From Halorussus pelagicus (lineage in GTDB: Archaea > Halobacteriota > Halobacteria > Halobacteriales > Haladaptataceae), in NCBI RefSeq assembly GCF_004087835.1, contig NZ_CP035121.1:1-64000 (forward strand): DNA of 64,000 bases. Direction: 5' to 3'. A program made the position numbers and the translations under genes. The first letter of the stretch is position 1; every line of letters starts with the position of its first letter. This document shows positions 36,972-46,780 of the stretch, piece by piece. The notes beneath the pieces are model-generated. The model searched no databases and had not been told where the DNA came from. It saw only the letters and a program-made list of their open reading frames with translations.

Positions 36972-37975
36972 TCAGTACCTCACAAAGCATCCTCGGCTAA
37001 CCGTTTCTGAAGCCTGAGTTCTGTGTCGGAGCGGTTGCACTGACGGTCTCGACGGGAGAATCATGGGTGAATCGACAGAGAGCCGTCGCTGTCGGCGGCA
37101 GCCGCCGCCGACGCGACAGCGTCGCCACTCACACCGCAGGCTGGCCCGGTCGGAGTTACCGGCTAAACCGGTCGTCCGGTGGTCGGTTTGCGGGGACGGC
37201 CCGCCGCACCGCGAGGGCCGTCCACGCTGCCCGTCGGACCATGTTAATGAACTCCCTGAACGGCCACTTCCAGAGGCGACGCCCGCCTCGGCGGGGCGTC
37301 GCCACGTACTCCCAGTGCAGATACCGCCAGACGTTCTGCAACAGCAAACTCACCACGACGTACAACAGCCGTACGACCGGATTCTGTGTTGAGGTCGTCG
37401 CAATACTCTGCTCGGAGAGCCGATAGCTCGCCTCGATACCGAAGCGTTTCGCGTAGTGGTCGAGCGTCTCGTGGAGTGTTGATGAACGGCGCGTCAGCGG
37501 CGTAGCCGTGACGCGCCACGCCATGTTCGTCATACCCCCCATTCTGATAGGTACAGTCGATGTAGACGGGAAACTCGACGGTCCAGCCGTGACCGTCGAG
37601 TTTCCCCGTCAGACTGTGCTGAATCACACGACTCCAGCCTTCCGAGAGTTCTTGCTTGATCGTCTTTCCCCAGCGGACGATCGGCATGACGTAGGCGTGG
37701 TTGTGCACCTGAAGCAGCGTCAAGCACTTGCTGTCGTAGAATTCGCGGTCAAGATACACGGCCTTGACCTCAAAGTCAAAGCCGTCGACGATACCAAGAA
37801 ACTCTGCGAGGACACTGCTAGCGGTGTCGACGTCGGTAAGACGGCGCACCACCAGCGTGTAGCGTTTGTTTCTCACACGCGCGTAGAGTGTCGCGTAGAC
37901 GTGGAACGCGGTGGTCCCACGCTTCGCTTGCGAATGATAGAGGCCGTCCGTGTCGTCTTCGTCACCATAGTAGGT
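36972..37975 (-). mobile_element. ISH3-type element, C-terminal half (inversion-split)
   Basis: The terminal repeat TCAGTACCTCACAAAGC begins at 36972 and is nearly identical to that of the other half at 44283. On the minus strand the transposase frame begins at the fusion point (YYGDEDDTDGLYHSQAKRGT) and includes VYLDREFYDSKCLTLLQ and ending RRAVPANRPPDDRFSR at about 37156. A one-base frameshift near 37465 breaks the frame. The first roughly 120 residues are absent and are found at 44331-44684. Not functional. Confidence 0.85.
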
Positions 37976-38315
37976 GATATGGCTATACGTGGTGTGCTCA
38001 CGGATTTTCCTGTGTTGGGATGTGGCCGAAGTCTTCTGCGAGTTCGACAAGATTCTCGAGTAGCCGTTGTTTTCGTTCGCGTTCGGAGCGTGTGGTCGGG
38101 GCCTCTTGATCTGGTTCGAGGCCGGCTTGTTTGATGGCGTTGTTCTGACTGTCGAAGCGGTTTCGGTAGGTGAGTGTGTGTTTTCCATGCGTGTTCATGT
38201 CCTCGAACATGGATGTGTGGTTGAGATCGTTGAGGAAGTATTTGAGTTCGTCGAGGAGGTCTTGGCGGCTAGTGCGGGAGTGTCCGGCATTGGGGTGAGA
38301 CACCCCGCGTTTCAT
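37976..38315 (-). pseudogene. Homing-endonuclease-repeat (HNH_repeat) gene, 5' part
   Basis: Minus-strand frame from ATG 38315. It contains one full HNH-associated repeat (LLDELKYFLNDLNHTSMFED, ending IKQAGLEPD) and the start of a second (LLENLVELAEDFGHIPTQEN). A one-base frameshift near 38007 is needed to continue to REHTTYSHITYY, where the frame passes into ISH3 sequence at 37969-37975. The missing end, DQYSGIEGPLEASELDLDSI, is found at 44685-44753 fused to the other ISH3 half. DNA binding is the presumed original role. Confidence 0.75.
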
Positions 38316-38470
38316 GAGAGTTTAGTACGAGGCAACGAGTTGGTGTTTCGAAGGGATCTCCCCCCGGTTTTCACGAGAGTTGTGGTGTTCTAAGTAGAGA
38401 GAGCGAGGTCGTGGTGGGTGAGAAGAGTAATTGGTTTGCCCCCTCTCCCCGATTTTCACGAGAGTTGGTG
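38309..38470 (+). repeat. Left origin recognition boxes (ORB-like), three copies
   Basis: Three copies of a TTTCAcGAGAGTT word: near 38309-38322 (with TGA in place of CGA), 38368-38381 and 38453-38466. The latter two are preceded by runs of C (CCCCCCGG and CTCTCCCC), as in haloarchaeal ORBs with their G-string on the opposite strand. All point the same way. Confidence 0.75.
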
Positions 38471-38633
38471 TCGAAGACAGTCTGGACGAAATCATGTCTA
38501 ACTCTTCTTCCTATAAAATCTCACTAAAATAAAGAAGCCGTGTTAGTTTGCAGATACTGTTTATATGGAGCAGTATTAAACCTTTCTCTTATCTAAAGTT
38601 CGTTCTCGACCTCTTCCCCTGGGATCTAATGGA
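38471..38633. other. Replication origin core, AT-rich unwinding region
   Basis: The stretch between the two oppositely oriented ORB sets is AT-rich (for example CCTATAAAATCTCACTAAAA near 38511-38530 and TGTTTATATGG near 38560), as expected for a duplex-unwinding element. It lies immediately upstream of orc1/cdc6. This arrangement is the standard haloarchaeal origin layout. Confidence 0.7.
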
Positions 38634-38758
38634 AACACTCGTGAAATGTGGGGGCGGGGGGGGCGAGGGGTTACGTCCGAACGCGTGGCAAAACTGTCTC
38701 GTGCCTCTCGTAAAGCGATGGGTGTGTCTCGTGAAACGGATGACTCTCGTGAAACGGT
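38634..38758 (-). repeat. Right origin recognition boxes (ORB-like), four copies
   Basis: The same word in reverse orientation: ACTCGTGAAATG with a following G-run (about 38636-38660), CTCTCGTAAAGCG (about 38704-38716), TCTCGTGAAACGG (38727-38739) and CTCTCGTGAAACGG (38744-38757). Some are degenerate. The last copies lie within 40 bp of the Orc1 start, so initiator binding would also cover its promoter. Confidence 0.75.
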
Positions 38759-38794
38759 GGTTTTATGTCACACGCTGTGTCTGTCATCTATACG

Positions 38795-40075
38795 ATGGGC
38801 TTGGAACCGTTCTCTCCTGACTCGACGATTTTTCGCGATGAATCTGTCTTACGAGACGGCTATCAGCCCGACCGCCTCATTGAGCGCGACCAGGAACTCG
38901 ACCAGTACCAGAGTGCGCTCAAACCCGTCATCAATGGGGCACCGCCAAAAAACCTGTTTCTATACGGGCAAACTGGCGTTGGGAAGACACTCTCCTCGCG
39001 AATGATCGTCGAGCGACTCACGGAAGATCAGGAGCGCATCGACGGCGTCGATATTCACGTCGTTGAACTGAACTGCAAATCGTTGAATAGTAGCTACCAG
39101 GTTGCTGCGAACCTTATCAATCAGTTCCGTCCGCCGGATGAACAGATCAAGCCGACCGGCTACCCGAGCGGCATGATTTATAATATGCTGTTCGAGGAAT
39201 TGGAAGCGCTCGACGCAACGCACTGCTTGGTGATACTCGACGAAATTGACGCAATTGGGAACGACGACGATATTCTGTATAAACTCCCGCGAGCGAACGA
39301 CAACGGAAACGTTGAGGAGACGTACGTTGGTGTTATCGGGATCTCGAATGATTTCACGTTCCGCGATAACCTCTCTGCGCGGGTGAAAGATTCGCTAGCT
39401 GATGAGGAGATCCACTTCCCGCCGTACGATGCGAATGAGCTTGGGAACATTTTGAAGCAGCGGGCTGGCGAGGCGTTCCACGACACGACTGCGGAGCAAC
39501 TCGATGATGGAAGTTACGAGTTACAGTCCGACATTTTGGAGGGTGATGTGATTCCATTGTGTGCGGCGTTCGCTGCACAAGATTCGGGGAGTGCTCGGCA
39601 GGCGCTGAAGCGGTTGTATAAAGCAGGAGATCTGGCTCGGGACGAGGAGTCCGAGGTGATTACGGAAGCGCACGTTAGGCAGGCTGATGAAATTGTGGAG
39701 CGCAATAAGATTCGTGAGGAGTTGCGACGATTGCCGACGCAAAGCAAGCTGACGTTGTATGCGTTGTTGTTATTGGAGCGGGACGATAAGACGCCATCGA
39801 AGCGTAACCGGATTTATGAACGGTATGTGATGGCTGCGAAGCGGATTGATGCGGATGTGCGGACGGACAGAACGATTCACGACCGGTTGTCGCAGCTGAC
39901 GTTGAAAGGATTCCTTGATGTGGACGAGCAGAACAAGGGCCCAAAGGGAGGGTCGTATTATGAATACGAGTTCTCGATTCGACCGGATCTTGCGCAGGAG
40001 GCGCTTGAGAAGGAAGAGCGGTTAAATGAGTTGTTCGATACTGGTGGGGCGTCGACGACGCTCGACTCGTTCTAA
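38795..40075 (+). CDS. Orc1/Cdc6-family replication initiator
   Basis: 426 residues from ATG 38795 (MGLEPFSPDSTIFRDE); an upstream in-frame ATG at 38765 overlaps the ORB region. Walker A GQTGVGKTLSSR lies near 58-69 and Walker B LVILDEIDAIG near 144-154. An AAA+ core and C-terminal winged helix (about 330-410, including LSQLTLKGFLDVDEQNKGPK) follow the family plan. It binds the adjacent ORBs and starts replication. The gene and origin together lie inside the segment proposed to have been inverted. Confidence 0.95.
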   Translation: MGLEPFSPDSTIFRDESVLRDGYQPDRLIERDQELDQYQSALKPVINGAPPKNLFLYGQTGVGKTLSSRMIVERLTEDQERIDGVDIHVVELNCKSLNSSYQVAANLINQFRPPDEQIKPTGYPSGMIYNMLFEELEALDATHCLVILDEIDAIGNDDDILYKLPRANDNGNVEETYVGVIGISNDFTFRDNLSARVKDSLADEEIHFPPYDANELGNILKQRAGEAFHDTTAEQLDDGSYELQSDILEGDVIPLCAAFAAQDSGSARQALKRLYKAGDLARDEESEVITEAHVRQADEIVERNKIREELRRLPTQSKLTLYALLLLERDDKTPSKRNRIYERYVMAAKRIDADVRTDRTIHDRLSQLTLKGFLDVDEQNKGPKGGSYYEYEFSIRPDLAQEALEKEERLNELFDTGGASTTLDSF

Positions 40076-40122
40076 CGTTCGAAGGCGTTGAGTGTGTCGA
40101 AGGCGACGCCGACGCGAGAGGG

Positions 40123-40344
40123 GTGTTCCTGAATGCGAGTGCTGGTCGGATGAATCCGGTCGAAGAGGTAGATGTTCGGATGCCGTATACGGGAGAGTAT
40201 TATCCGGGCATGGGAGCTTGTGTTCGACGCTCGGTTTGGAAGGGAGATGTGTCGGTAGATCCGGAGAATTCACGGGTGTCGGTTATGTTTCGAGAGGAAG
40301 AGACGTCTTCAAGTGTGGCGTTTTTTGCATGTGTGAGTGAGTAA
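40123..40344 (+). CDS. Small acidic hypothetical protein after orc1
   Basis: About 73 residues from GTG 40123, or fewer from an internal ATG (MNPVEEVDVRMPYTGEYYPG). The frame is acidic and beta-like with normal haloarchaeal codon use, ending SSVAFFACVSE at 40344. It follows orc1 by about 50 bp on the same strand. No family recognised. Confidence 0.4.
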   Translation: MFLNASAGRMNPVEEVDVRMPYTGEYYPGMGACVRRSVWKGDVSVDPENSRVSVMFREEETSSSVAFFACVSE

Positions 40345-40397
40345 TGTACGGTTCGTTGTGTAATGTCGCGCTCGCCGGCTAGTACTGTGCTCGAGTA

Positions 40398-41328
40398 TTA
40401 TAGTGCTTTGAGGTAGTTTTCCTGCGGCTCATATAATTCACCGCGAGAGATGAGTGAGTCGATGGTCGTAGTAATATCGTCGCGAGGAAGGTCGAGTTCG
40501 TCATGAATTTCGAGCGCTGCTCGTTCCCGTGGTGCTCCTGGGGCGTCTTCGAAGTAGTTGTTCACACTCTTGATGACGCGTTTGATGCCTTCTGGGGGAT
40601 GTTCGTTGCCGGTGGTTGTGGATTCGATAGGTATGTCTTTTCGCGGTTGTTTGTATGGGTTTGATATCAAGGGGATGTCGTCGACGTTCTCGAGGAGATC
40701 CTCGCAGAGCGAGACGACCTTTTGTGCGTTATTGGAATCCTTTGAGGCGTAGTCGGCTTTGAGTTCGGTGACGTATGTTTCCCAGTCGAGGCCGTCGATG
40801 TCGCGCCATTCGTGTGGGTAATAGATATCGACGAATTTGTGGCCGTAGTGTCGGTGATGATTGTTGCAGAGGGGTGCAAGATTTTTCGCGTCGCCTGTGC
40901 CGTAATAGCGAGGTGGGACAATTCTATGAACGGCGTCGACGTCGTTGTCGCAAGCAAGACAGGTGTTTCCGTATCGGTTTTTGGCTTCTGTGCGTGCTTC
41001 GTCGGTTATCGCGTCGTACTCGTCTTTGGGTTGGACTTCGTAGCCGACGGGATGAGCGGCTTGTTGCCGGTTCATGGAGAAGTATTCGTTACACTCAGGG
41101 CAGTGCTTTTTTCCCCCCGTTGCGCCAGGATTTGCAGTTCGGCCAGGAAGTTTTGTCTCGGTCGCCCCAGTCGAGTTCGAGCGGTGTGAGTTCGTTACCG
41201 CAGTCGCAAACATACAGTTCTGGAGTTGTTCGCTGGAGTCCGTGTGCTTCAGCGTCGAGAAGGATGAAGACGAGATAGTTGTGGTGTGAGTGGGCGGAGT
41301 GTGGTTGTTCGTAAGCACCGAGGAGCAT
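40398..41328 (-). pseudogene. HNH endonuclease gene with +1 frameshift in a G6A6 run
   Basis: The N-terminal part reads in one frame from ATG 41328 (MLLGAYEQPHSAHSHHNYLV, then a Cys pair in YVCDCGNELTPLELDWGD) and ends soon after a GGGGGGAAAAAAG run at about 41109-41121. The rest reads in the next frame: CPECNEYF, then NRYGNTCLACDNDVDAVHRI and NLAPLCNNHHRHYGHKF, an HNH nuclease core, and a C-terminal helical domain. The join at a homopolymer run could be a real mutation, a sequencing indel or recoding. A continuous reading without the shift would need an unlikely Ser/Thr-rich N-terminus. Confidence 0.7.
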
Positions 41329-41652
41329 ATGTGCGTGTGGTTGCTGTGGTGTCTTAAACGGTGATCAGCCGGAATGTGTGATATACTGGGAGGTTATTTG
41401 ACGGTATGTCTATATGATCTATGTATGGGTATTCAGGTTCCCGGCTACCGAGTACAGGAAGCACTCGACTGTCTTGAGAGCAACTGACGTCACTAGGCTC
41501 TCAACGATTAATTTGCTTCGTAACAAACGGCGTTCAGGTAGCGGTTTTTCTTCGTGCCAACTATCGCTGTTTAATCGCAGAGTGATTTTGTCCTGGATCT
41601 CATCACTCTATGCCTGGGAAATTCATTATAGTAGGCCGTCTTCGGCGTTGTT

Positions 41653-42355
41653 TTACTTGCTATCTTCTCTCTCATCTCGGAGGTTATCAACCAATGCCTG
41701 TATGTAGTCGTAGGAGTCCTCTTTACCAGGCTCCCGAACTGCTGTAGTTCCCGATGAACCGACTCCCTTGGGGTGGAGGTAAACATCTTTATTCTCTTGT
41801 GCGTGAATGTTCGACCAGTTATCAATGTCTAACCCAGACTCTCCAAGTGCATCTTTTAGATTAGTTGTTTTAGCACGCGAAACACCGTGAGCATCCTCTA
41901 AAGGTAAGCACAACTGCTGCTCCAGTCAAAATACGCTCTGCAACAGAGGTTCCAAGCAGGTCGGTATCTTCGAGAATTTCGGGGAATTCCTTAATCTCAT
42001 CATCCTCAACCCTCCCGGTTTTCAGTACTCGCTGTAGTTCGGTATCTGTTGCATTTACTTCATCAAATAACGAATTGGAACGACCATTGCTGCCGCCAGT
42101 TGTATGCTCGTCGGTGCTTAATTCGTCTGCTGTATCCCCTTCTGTGGGGTCAACAGTAGTTTCCTGTTGTATTCCGATTCCCATGGCATCATAACTTTCA
42201 ACGAAGTCGCCTAGAGCCTCCAATACGTCTGCATCGTCCTCATCTTCGGCAGCGGAAACTTCGGCTTCTAGTGGCCCCTCACGGAATATAATTTGAATAT
42301 CTATTATTTTGGATATAAATTGTTTCCGTATGGATATATTGTTTGAATCATACAA
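41653..42355 (-). pseudogene. Acidic hypothetical gene with one frameshift
   Basis: From ATG 42355 the minus frame gives about 150 acidic residues (SLFDEVNATDTELQRVLKTG and SVAERILTGAAVVL), then shifts. A one-base correction near 41905 continues as LEDAHGVSRAKTTNLKDALG and ends LVDNLRDEREDSK at 41653, for about 230 residues in all. Both halves have matching composition. TATA-like sequence lies just upstream. The MITE at 42368 abuts the 5' end and may have displaced the original promoter or start. Family unknown. The 324 bp between here and 41328 hold no gene I can support. Confidence 0.45.
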
Positions 42356-42359
42356 GATG

Positions 42360-42606
42360 ATCTAGACGGCACTGTCTAGTTACGCGAAACCGGCAGACGG
42401 TGGTACGATGAACTCGCGGAAGGCGCGTGGAACTAGTGTATGATAACTGTAATTTAGGGTCGAGATGCGATGAGCGGCGTGCATTCGCCGGTCTTACTCA
42501 ACACCCCGACAAAGCTGCAGGAATCCGTACCGTTTGCTACCGGCCAAAGAGGCGCTGTATCGCCAATCTATTCGAGAACTGCGTAACTAGACAGTGCCAT
42601 CTAGAC
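42360..42606. mobile_element. IS6-type MITE with perfect 18-bp ends and 8-bp target duplication
   Basis: The element spans 42368-42598 (231 bp). Its ends GGCACTGTCTAGTTACGC are perfect inverted repeats, and ATCTAGAC is duplicated on both sides (42360-42367, 42599-42606). No coding capacity. The end sequence resembles IS6-family haloarchaeal termini as I remember them; a related single end occurs at 48079-48097. Confidence 0.85.
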
Positions 42607-42820
42607 TGTCTCTACGTACTGATGGAACTGGAATATCAGCAAACGGCTTGAGGAGTTGGAATCCGATGTATTTGACGAAGATCCGGACAAACGACTGTTA
42701 CGTAGCAGATTGTACGAATTCATGCTAGTTAAAAATTCTTACTGCAGCATAAATATCAAACCCTATATACCGAGACTTTCAAAACGACTCTGTTATACAT
42801 GAGTTGCATTATCCTACCTT

Positions 42821-43447
42821 ATGAGCGAATCTGAACGCTCTCCTTCCATTTTTACAGACGCAGGGGAAGAGTGGATAACAGAATTGGTCGAAACTCTTCG
42901 TGATGGGGAATACAAGACCGCACGCAAAGAGTATGCGACAGATGATTCGTGGCGATTCGGGAATCCACGAGCAGGGAGAGTACCACAAGAACATCCGGAG
43001 TTCGGCCGGATAGTTAGAGAAGATGCTGGACCCCAGTATGTCATCACCTCGACGCACGGGAAAGACCGAGATTTCACTGCAGTAGAGGGAGAGCATACGT
43101 CTGATCCACGGTTCACCCGGTGTTATTCGATAGAGAATTTCGGAAAAGTCCGCATCTACTGTGAGGCCAAAGCACGAGACGTCGACCACCTGTTTGTCCC
43201 GATCACTGGCTGGGACGGAGAAAACTTTTCGTGGATTACAATGCCTGAAGCGTCGGATGTGACCAGAAGCGACGGTGGAACGCCTCAAGCTGAACCACTC
43301 AAAGAAGCACTCACACAGAGCGACCCAAACTGGATTCCACACGATGAAGAAGTCGGAGTCTACAACGGACGCAAGGTCCTCTTAGACTACGGAATGTTCT
43401 GGTACGATGGTCCCTGGATGATCCCCGAATCCCAAATCATGGACTGA
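42821..43447 (+). CDS. Hypothetical protein
   Basis: 208 residues from ATG 42821 (MSESERSPSIFTDAGEEWIT). Acidic, soluble, rich in aromatic residues toward the C-terminus (VLLDYGMFWYDGPWMIP). A TATA-like AAACCCTATATACC lies about 60 bp ahead. It looks intact, unlike its neighbours. No motif recognised. Confidence 0.65.
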   Translation: MSESERSPSIFTDAGEEWITELVETLRDGEYKTARKEYATDDSWRFGNPRAGRVPQEHPEFGRIVREDAGPQYVITSTHGKDRDFTAVEGEHTSDPRFTRCYSIENFGKVRIYCEAKARDVDHLFVPITGWDGENFSWITMPEASDVTRSDGGTPQAEPLKEALTQSDPNWIPHDEEVGVYNGRKVLLDYGMFWYDGPWMIPESQIMD

Positions 43448-43612
43448 TTGGCAAACAATTTCTGAGTCGGTGATTCCGACGAAGCCGCTGAATTATGAAT
43501 TAGACTCGGTATTGCTTTCCCCGCGTGCTACCTCAGGACGAGACCGTCGTGATCGAATTCTTTCTCACGAAGGATTTCAAGCCCGCTATCTGGTAATTTA
43601 CTAATCTTGTTC

Positions 43613-43732
43613 GTTGACCACGCCAGTAGTGTCCTCGCTGGAAGCCGCGACATCAACCACATCTTCGCATTCGATAGTGACTTTCGGACACTCGGATTCA
43701 CCCTCATCCCCGAGGACGTCAGACGACTCTGA
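43613..43732 (+). pseudogene. PIN-domain (VapC-type) toxin fragment
   Basis: A plus-strand frame reads VDHASSVLAGSRDINHIFAF then DSDFRTLGFTLIPEDV and stops at 43730. This is the C-terminal end of a VapC-like PIN nuclease (the HIFAFDSDFRTLG motif with its late Asp). The upstream three quarters of the gene are missing or unrecognisable. Relic of a toxin-antitoxin pair. Confidence 0.65.
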
Positions 43733-43831
43733 CTGACGAGTTTCTGCTCGCCGAGTAGTGTCTCATTCTCAGGTTGACTAGCGAGGTCGGCACCAGGAAA
43801 CTCATCTTCCGTCAGTATTGGGGGTAGCAGA

Positions 43832-43875
43832 GTTAACCAACATACGGGCTGGATTGGCGGATAGTTGTTGGTTAA
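43832..43875. repeat. Palindromic element, TTAACCAACA ends (copy 1)
   Basis: GTTAACCAACA at 43832-43842 faces TGTTGGTTAA at 43866-43875 across about 23 bp. A GGGGTAGCAGA word also occurs on each side (about 43821 and 43889). The same palindrome occurs at 45839-45892. Confidence 0.55.
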
Positions 43876-44142
43876 GACCACCAGATACGGGGTAGCAGAA
43901 GCGATGACGATGTTGATGACAAGCTAAAACTGCACAGTGGTCTGTGCAAAATCCCCGGAAGGAAGCGTGTTGGGACCACATCAGTTAGATTTACGACCAC
44001 ATTGGTGGTTTCGACGCTGATTCCAAGTGGCGTTTGTCCACATCCGCGAGCAGACTAATCGTGGATTCAGAACGACCTGTCACCTAATTCTATCGACAGA
44101 CTAATCTCCGAATTTTCAGAAAATCAACTTGATGATTGTGAC

Positions 44143-44280
44143 TACGATTCTGTGTCTGTAGCGCCATCAATGAGTGTACTAAAACGCGTGAGGAGGTCTT
44201 CAGCGGACTGTAAAGTGGTGGTCAGTCGGTATCCCTCATCGTTTTTCTCCACGAAATCGAGAGTAGGATACGAAAGTAAG
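44143..44280 (-). pseudogene. Regulator-like gene fragment truncated by ISH3
   Basis: The minus frame reads LDFVEKNDEGYRLTTTLQSA then EDLLTRFSTLIDGATDTES and stops at 44143. It resembles the C-terminal end of small haloarchaeal winged-helix regulators found beside VapC genes (from memory, uncertain). Its 5' end meets the ISH3 terminal repeat at 44283. Confidence 0.4.
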
Positions 44281-44282
44281 GT

Positions 44283-44684
44283 TCAGTACTTCACAAAGCC
44301 AGTTAGTTGAGACGTCTGCTTGCAGAAGGTGTGTCTAAAACCCAGCAAGCAGACGGTGAAATCCACAAGGACCGGCTTCTTAACTTCCTCGTCAACTCCC
44401 TTAACGAGGAAGTTGCACTCACACTCGGAGAGAACGCCAAACTCGACGCTCAAGACATCTACGAGGTCCTCGTCGGCGCTTGCGCCGACGGGACCTCCGT
44501 CTCGACGCTCTGTGAGAGAAATGAAGATGCACCGCACGAAAACTCGGTTCTCTACCATCTCCGGACCAAGTTCGACCTGGAGGCACTCGAAGAAGTTGGG
44601 AACACGCTCCTCCAGAAAGACGTTCTCGACGTCCTCCCCCAGCAGATGGAGGTCGTCGCGGACCTCCACTTGCGACCCTACTAC
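44283..44684 (+). mobile_element. ISH3-type element, N-terminal half (inversion-split)
   Basis: Begins with terminal repeat TCAGTACTTCACAAAGC at 44283. The transposase frame starts at GTG 44331 (VSKTQQADGEIHKDRLLNFL) and includes DIYEVLVGACADGTSVSTLC and MEVVADLHLRPYY, the N-terminal third of ISH3-type transposases. It ends at the crossover word CCTACTA (44678-44684). The remaining two thirds lie at 36972-37975 on the other strand; the two add up to about 1.4 kb, the size of a complete ISH3. Confidence 0.85.
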
Positions 44685-44753
44685 GACCAATATAGCGGTA
44701 TCGAGGGACCTCTCGAAGCCTCTGAGTTAGATCTCGACAGTATCGATACCTAA
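44685..44753 (+). pseudogene. Homing-endonuclease-repeat gene, 3' end fused to ISH3 half
   Basis: In frame with the ISH3 N-terminal half the sequence continues DQYSGIEGPLEASELDLDSI and stops. It aligns with the end of the first repeat of the gene at 37976-38315 (FDSQNNAIKQAGLEPD), so it is the missing end of the second repeat. Confidence 0.7.
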
Positions 44754-44779: not shown

Positions 44780-45840
44780 CCATCGTTCGCTCTTATGTAG
44801 AACTGTGGAACGCCCCGATAACGAGACACTCAATGGCTGAATCGATGGATTCGCCCACAAGGGTGAGTGAGCGAACGATGCCGAAGGTGTGAGCGGCCTG
44901 TTCCAAGCCCTGCTTGGACAGGCCGCGGAACTTCCGTAGCCACGGCTTGACGAGCGAGAACAGGCACTCAGCCTGATTGATGTGGACGCCGTCGGGCGAT
45001 ACGTACCGTTCCTTGTGCACGACGGGTCGATGGTCATGCTCCATTTCTCGGTAGGCTTGGAGTCCGTCGGTCCAGACCTCTCCCAGTGGCTGGGAGAGGT
45101 CTTCAGCCGCCTGAATCACTGGCTCAAGATCACCGTCGTAGTCGATGCCGAGTTGGCCGCGGATCACGCGAAGCGAGTCGCGGCACGCCGCGACGAGCGT
45201 CAACTGATCGCCGTGACGGCCCCGCCAGCGTGAGCGGCCAGTTTGGGACGAGCCGCCGCGAGAACGGCTGTGCCGCGGCGGCTCTTGGCCTTTGTAGCCC
45301 GAACAGACTGCACCAGATTCGTCGACTTGGATCGGTCCGTCGATGGTTTGGTCGAGGAGGCTCCAGACGACGGGGAAACCGCGATGAATCGCGGTTTCCA
45401 CCTCCCGAATCGCGGTGTGAATGGTTTTGTAGGCTCGCCCGACCAACGGCGCGATCTGGTTGATCTGAGCAACGTATCGGCGTAGAGGGTGAACGCGAAA
45501 AGTACCTCACCACAGGTGAGGTGCTTCTCGTGGAACGGCGTTCCGTAGGTGTAGACCGGCTTGAAGTTGCAGTCACGGCACCACACGCGGTCGTGGTGTG
45601 GCCACGTTTGAACGGAGTTGTGCCCGCACCGTGGACAGGACGTATTCTCTCAGAATTCCTTGAGTCGCCGCTCGATGCGGGCATCGAGCGGTTCGGTGTC
45701 GATCTCGACGACGCCCAGCTCGATCAGCTCTCGAAACATTGCGCCGAACGCCGGCTGAGCAGACGACATACTCCCAGATTATGGCTGGCTCAGTGTAACT
45801 ACAGGGGCTTTCCGCAGCTCTATATAAGAGCGCCATCGTT
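44780..45840. mobile_element. ISH4-type (IS1595 family) insertion sequence with target duplication
   Basis: The element spans 44788-45832 (1045 bp). Its ends match as inverted repeats: CGCTCTTATGTAGAACTGTG on the left, and CGCTCTTATATAGAGCTGCG as the complement of the right end (3 differences). The octamer CCATCGTT is duplicated at 44780-44787 and 45833-45840. Size, 8-bp duplication and transposase type fit ISH4-like elements. Confidence 0.88.
44793..45769 (-). pseudogene. IS1595-family (ISXO2-like) transposase, two lesions
   Basis: From ATG 45769 the frame reads MSSAQPAFGAMFRELIELGV to a TGA at 45650-45652, then resumes in the same frame with a zinc ribbon (CPRCGH ... WCRDC). A frameshift near 45467 then shifts it to the frame AQINQIAPLVGRAYKTIHTA, which continues with VDESGAVCSGYKGQ, VWTDGLQAY and HINQAECLFSLVKPWLRK to the end. 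The DDE-type catalytic residues seem present but the enzyme cannot be made intact. Confidence 0.85.
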
Positions 45841-46275: not shown

Positions 46276-46780
46276 GGGGTTACGGTCAGGCGAGATCGCG
46301 CGACTCCACGTCAACCAGTTTGTCGGTGTCGACTCCGACGACCCACACATTGAGTTCGAGGAACGGAAGAACGGCCCAAGCACAGTCAGCCTTCTCTACG
46401 GCTTGGACGCCTACCGGGAGCGCCAGCACGAACTCGTCGATGACTACGACGAGTGGAGTGGCTACCTCTTCCCCTCAACACAAGCCGAGACGGGCCACAT
46501 TGACTCGGATACTGTCCGGAATCGGTTCCACCGACTCGCCAAACAGGCTGGTGTCCGCGTCGACGGTGGCCTCCCGAAGCCCCACATGGCCCGCCGATTC
46601 TGGTATAGCCAGTACCAAGACGCCCTTGCAGACGTGCTCGACCGCCTCGATATCATCGCTGACGAACAGGGGAGTTCCTCCGCGGACGTGGTGCATCAGA
46701 ATTATCTTTCCGAGGAGAAACGTCGAGAGGCCCGGCGGCCTGCGATGCGAGAGTTGCTCGCAGACGCGTTCGGTAAGTAG
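46276..46780 (+). pseudogene. Truncated second integrase copy (C-terminal half)
   Basis: Starts abruptly at TGGGGGTTACGGTCAGGCGA, equivalent to residue 245 of the integrase at 17944, and runs to the same C-terminus (RELLADAFGK). By eye about 95% of residues are identical. It keeps the first catalytic Arg, PHMARRFW and HQNYLSEEKR but lacks the N-terminal binding domain and any start signal. Similarity extends about 20 bp past the stop. Confidence 0.85.

Follow-up and report, generated by a model that had tools for sequence, protein, structure and literature searches.

How did two genes on one replicon of Halorussus pelagicus come to exchange their halves across an intervening replication initiator gene? 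The window analysed here comprises bases 1-64000 of contig C3 (111,878 bp), one of the 4 contigs of the 3.49-Mb genome, and C3 is most likely a plasmid because many relatives of its orc1 are plasmid-borne. As a preliminary description had reported, the window contains two reciprocal chimeric frames. On the minus strand, the HNH repeat sequence EHTTYSHITYY runs into the ISH3 sequence GDEDDTDGLYHS, and on the plus strand the ISH3 sequence ADLHLRPYY runs into the end of an HNH repeat, DQYSGIEGPLEASELDLDSI. Reading of the frames together with Pfam placed the 5' part of an HNH_repeat (PF18780) gene at 37975-38315 on the minus strand and its 3' end, terminating in DQYSGIEGPLEASELDLDSIDT and a stop codon, at 44684-44753 on the plus strand. 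Reconstruction and genome searches placed the 3' part of an ISH3 element, with the C-terminal part of the transposase and the right terminal repeat on the 36973 side, at 36973-37974 on the minus strand; the 5' part, with the left terminal repeat on the 44284 side and the N-terminal part of the transposase, lies at 44284-44683 on the plus strand. The motif CCTACTA stands at both junctions, as had been proposed, at 37968-37974 on the minus strand (TAGTAGG as read on the plus strand) and at 44677-44683 on the plus strand; the positions first given for it (37969-37975 and 44678-44684) were each one base too high.

This shift of one base mattered for the reconstruction. Inversion in silico of 37976-44677, as initially suggested, broke both frames, whereas inversion of 37968-44683 (6,716 bp counting both motif copies, and equivalent to inversion of 37975-44676) rejoined the halves of both ISH3 and the HNH_repeat gene; the extent of this segment also agrees with alignments of ISH3 homologues. 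The restored ISH3 measured 1,395 bp, in line with the expectation that the halves add up to about 1.4 kb. It ran from CAGTAC to GTACTG with both terminal repeats, the inverted ends matching each other (CAGTACTTCACAAAGC / CAGTACCTCACAAAGC), and its length fits the ~1.39-1.40 kb of the family. A single frame continued across the join. Along its whole length the element aligned with ISH51 from archaeon DL31 (90% over 1,397 bp) without a gap at the join, and the join was likewise gapless in all 26 intact ISH3 homologues that were read. In addition, 44 plasmid records matched 80% or more of the length of the restored element. Against the NCBIfam ISH3 profile, which has a cut-off of 225 bits, the halves scored 80.1 and 203.4 bits, each below the cut-off, while the joined transposase scored 289.5 bits and spanned profile positions 1-248 unbroken. 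Reconstruction, homologue alignments and family scores thus agree with the claim of a single 6.7-kb inversion at a 7-bp microhomology, and we consider it highly probable that one reciprocal inversion between ISH3 and the HNH_repeat gene at CCTACTA explains both chimeras.

Haloarchaea often carry truncated ISH3 copies, so unrelated fragments, two of ISH3 and two of HNH_repeat genes, could have become adjacent by chance or by independent deletions. The preliminary description had itself named an origin of the ISH3 halves from different elements as a finding that would speak against the inversion. Results showed the opposite: each half is single-copy in the 3.49-Mb genome, both halves have the same nearest homologues (89.6% identity for the N-terminal half and 91.2% for the C-terminal half with the nearest one), and the identities of the two halves were correlated across the 26 homologues (Spearman 0.80). 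The ISH3 parts, moreover, adjoin with single-base precision at the 7-mer, and the HNH parts break at the same base. Independent truncations are nearly refuted by the single-copy halves and their shared nearest homologues, and this explanation has a negligible probability. A misoriented segment or chimeric reads in the assembly would also produce such frames, but a junction repeat of just 7 bp is much too short to lead an assembler astray, and the two reciprocal junctions would both need to be false in a genome assembled into 4 contigs. We therefore rejected misassembly as exceedingly improbable.

The restored ISH3 is a full-length member of its family, yet it is not autonomous, because its transposase gene lacks 2 nt that ISH51 has (at element position ~911) and is frameshifted there, and because the inversion splits the element. 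In its terminal repeats, length and transposase it resembles ISH51, ISH3B and their relatives; unlike them, it carries the 2-nt deletion and the inversion split. A 5-bp target duplication was not found at its ends, which are flanked by AGGTT and ATTTT. Such a duplication is the usual trace of insertion and no requirement for ISH3 membership, and it was also missing in 7 of the 14 distinct intact homologues. We had taken its absence as a possible mark of further rearrangement and dropped this idea, as half of the intact homologues are without one too. That half of the distinct copies are without a matching duplication suggests frequent recombination between ISH3 copies. The 5-bp flanks of the intact homologues (loci L037, L059 and L087-L109) start with A and nearly all end with T.

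The joined HNH_repeat gene still needs one frameshift correction. The frameshift precedes the join by about 13 codons (...HIPTQENP followed by a stop, then IREHTTYSH...), and both it and the frameshift in ISH3 are separate events from the inversion. The PF18780 score rose from 54.6 bits for the surviving fragment to 69.3 bits for the joined and frame-corrected gene (cut-off 26), and the gene is single-copy in the genome at the threshold used. The second HNH repeat alone gained about 4.5 bits (29.2 bits in the chimera versus 33.7 bits when joined). Because this gain is small and depends on the corrected frame, the HNH side is supporting evidence; the ISH3 side carries the proof of inversion.

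None of the relatives among the plasmids and orc1 loci compared showed the uninverted arrangement, and the polarity of the event therefore rests on the integrity of the parents: an ISH3 that has both of its ends must have existed as one intact element before its division. The nearest plasmid (G014:C8, from the same genus) is 92% identical over orc1 and its upstream region, and in it the HNH gene breaks off after its first codons, where an IS605-like insertion follows. Searching the other orc1 loci checked with the restored HNH gene (tblastn) revealed no counterpart beside orc1, and the exact parental HNH junction and both derived junctions were not found in viral contigs. On a circular plasmid, which part is said to have flipped is a convention.

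The inverted segment carries an orc1/cdc6 initiator gene (38765-40075, plus strand), as had been stated, with an intact frame and all of its Pfam domains. Upstream of it, a non-coding region at 38299-38755 contains inverted TTTCACGAGAGT repeats together with ACTCTCGTGAAA repeats. The interval 38439-38764 is ~77% conserved in Haloarcula plasmids and 92% in the same-genus plasmid. Owing to the inverted repeats and the conservation beyond the genus from 38439 on, the region upstream of orc1 is a plausible, and likely, replication origin as judged from sequence. It had been called the origin; it is one of at least two candidates, since this 112-kb replicon has a second orc1/cdc6 gene at C3:69241-70479, outside the inverted segment. 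The segment also holds a 25-bp inverted repeat (42361-42385 / 42581-42605, 96% complementary, 195 bp apart).

The two parental sites, ATATCA-CCTACTA-CGACC in the HNH gene and TGCGAC-CCTACTA-TGGTG in ISH3, are identical over exactly the 7 bp CCTACTA and nowhere beyond. A short identity at both junctions with none further out is the pattern of a microhomology inversion. When 400,000 random pairs of inverted breakpoints were drawn within the window, 7 bp or more were shared by chance in 0.05% (P ~0.0005, about 1 in 2,000). As random breakpoints rarely share this much, the 7-mer was probably used in the joining. The plasmid would once have borne ISH3 and the HNH_repeat gene, each with a copy of CCTACTA in opposite orientation to the other, and orc1 with its upstream repeats would have lain in the roughly 6.7 kb between them. 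Crosswise rejoining of breaks at or beside both 7-mers would then have flipped the 6.7 kb and produced two reciprocal chimeras, with practically no loss or gain of bases. We infer, with somewhat better than even confidence, that microhomology-mediated joining was the most likely route, either as Ku-independent end joining or as template switching, perhaps between plasmid copies. The inversion was probably a one-time event, and it may have been kept because the orc1 module works either way round and neither of the broken genes is essential.

Bases are usually lost in ordinary end joining, whose classical route tends to drop one motif copy or flanking bases. The reconstruction indicates that both 7-mer copies were retained and that there is no gap at the ISH3 join; this loss-free reciprocal exchange is cleaner than typical end joining and is a point against the microhomology route. 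The retention of both copies fits staggered breaks within the motif, ends from different plasmid copies, or a template switch. Haloferax volcanii, which is without Ku, joins cut plasmids at microhomologies of 3-5 bp (PMC2700283), and microhomology joining is therefore available in haloarchaea. Our literature searches on microhomology inversions in haloarchaea found nothing direct.

A conservative, possibly reversible exchange at the 7-mer by a site-specific recombinase of the tyrosine type or by a topoisomerase would rival the route only, not the inversion itself. Tyrosine-type recombinases require an identical overlap of 6-8 bp, and here the 7-bp core is exact and the exchange was reciprocal, with almost nothing lost; C3 also encodes a tyrosine recombinase (C3:18604-19029) and a truncated one (~46280-46780). 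By inspection, however, neither 7-mer is flanked by inverted arms, and the two sites are dissimilar. Moreover, among the ISH3 matches listed from 243 genomes, none starts or stops at element positions 394-402, so breaks do not recur at this site. An enzyme-made exchange is thus improbable. That a recombinase or topoisomerase with a short core made it and the orc1 module still flips in the living population is very unlikely. Programmed site-specific inversion was likewise judged unlikely, with no recombinase-binding arms, no shared flanks and no recurrence among the matches listed.

Several other features accompany the locus on C3. An IS1595-family element (44788-45832) sits just downstream of the end of the HNH gene; its inverted ends are imperfect and 29 bp long, and its target duplication, CCATCGTT, measures 8 bp. 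The truncated tyrosine recombinase is a remnant at 46280-46780 without the N-terminal part (Pfam PF00589, 29.7 bits). An inverted repeat of the form TTAACCAACA-N(21-32)-TGTTGGTTAA occurs in 8 copies on C3 (43833-43875, 45840-45891, C3:71096, 73628, 80776, 87274, 103875 and 104257) and in none on the other contigs (control 0). Of 28 genomes of the family, 21 have it, with at most 20 copies per genome, mostly outside the largest contig. The spacers in the family are mostly 20-22 bp and differ; some agree in one half only, with 16 such half matches versus about 1 for shuffled spacers, although several are orthologous sites. This pattern is a hint of site-specific recombination or of a binding site borne by plasmids. 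A text search of the literature for the arm returned only unrelated entries among the matches listed.

On the gas vesicle plasmid of Halobacterium, long inverted repeats recombine to give inversion isomers. The present case resembles those isomers (Ng et al. 1991, as cited in PMC10264941) as an inversion on an ISH-rich haloarchaeal megaplasmid; unlike them, the C3 sites share only 7 bp and the insertion sequence is cut internally. With microhomology-mediated end joining in H. volcanii, also a haloarchaeon, it has in common joins at a few shared base pairs in place of long homology; the products documented there are deletions with 3-5 bp (PMC2700283), whereas the inversion on C3 has two junctions that share 7 bp and lost practically no bases. 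Rearrangements of this kind are known, and the present one is a clean example and no new class of system, with nothing indicating a programmed or continuing switch. The locus provides a base-precise fossil of an illegitimate reciprocal inversion in a haloarchaeon, in which both junctions and both parents are legible in one sequence, and adds a natural case of microhomology joining without deletion. The inversion also suggests that the orc1 module tolerates reversal.
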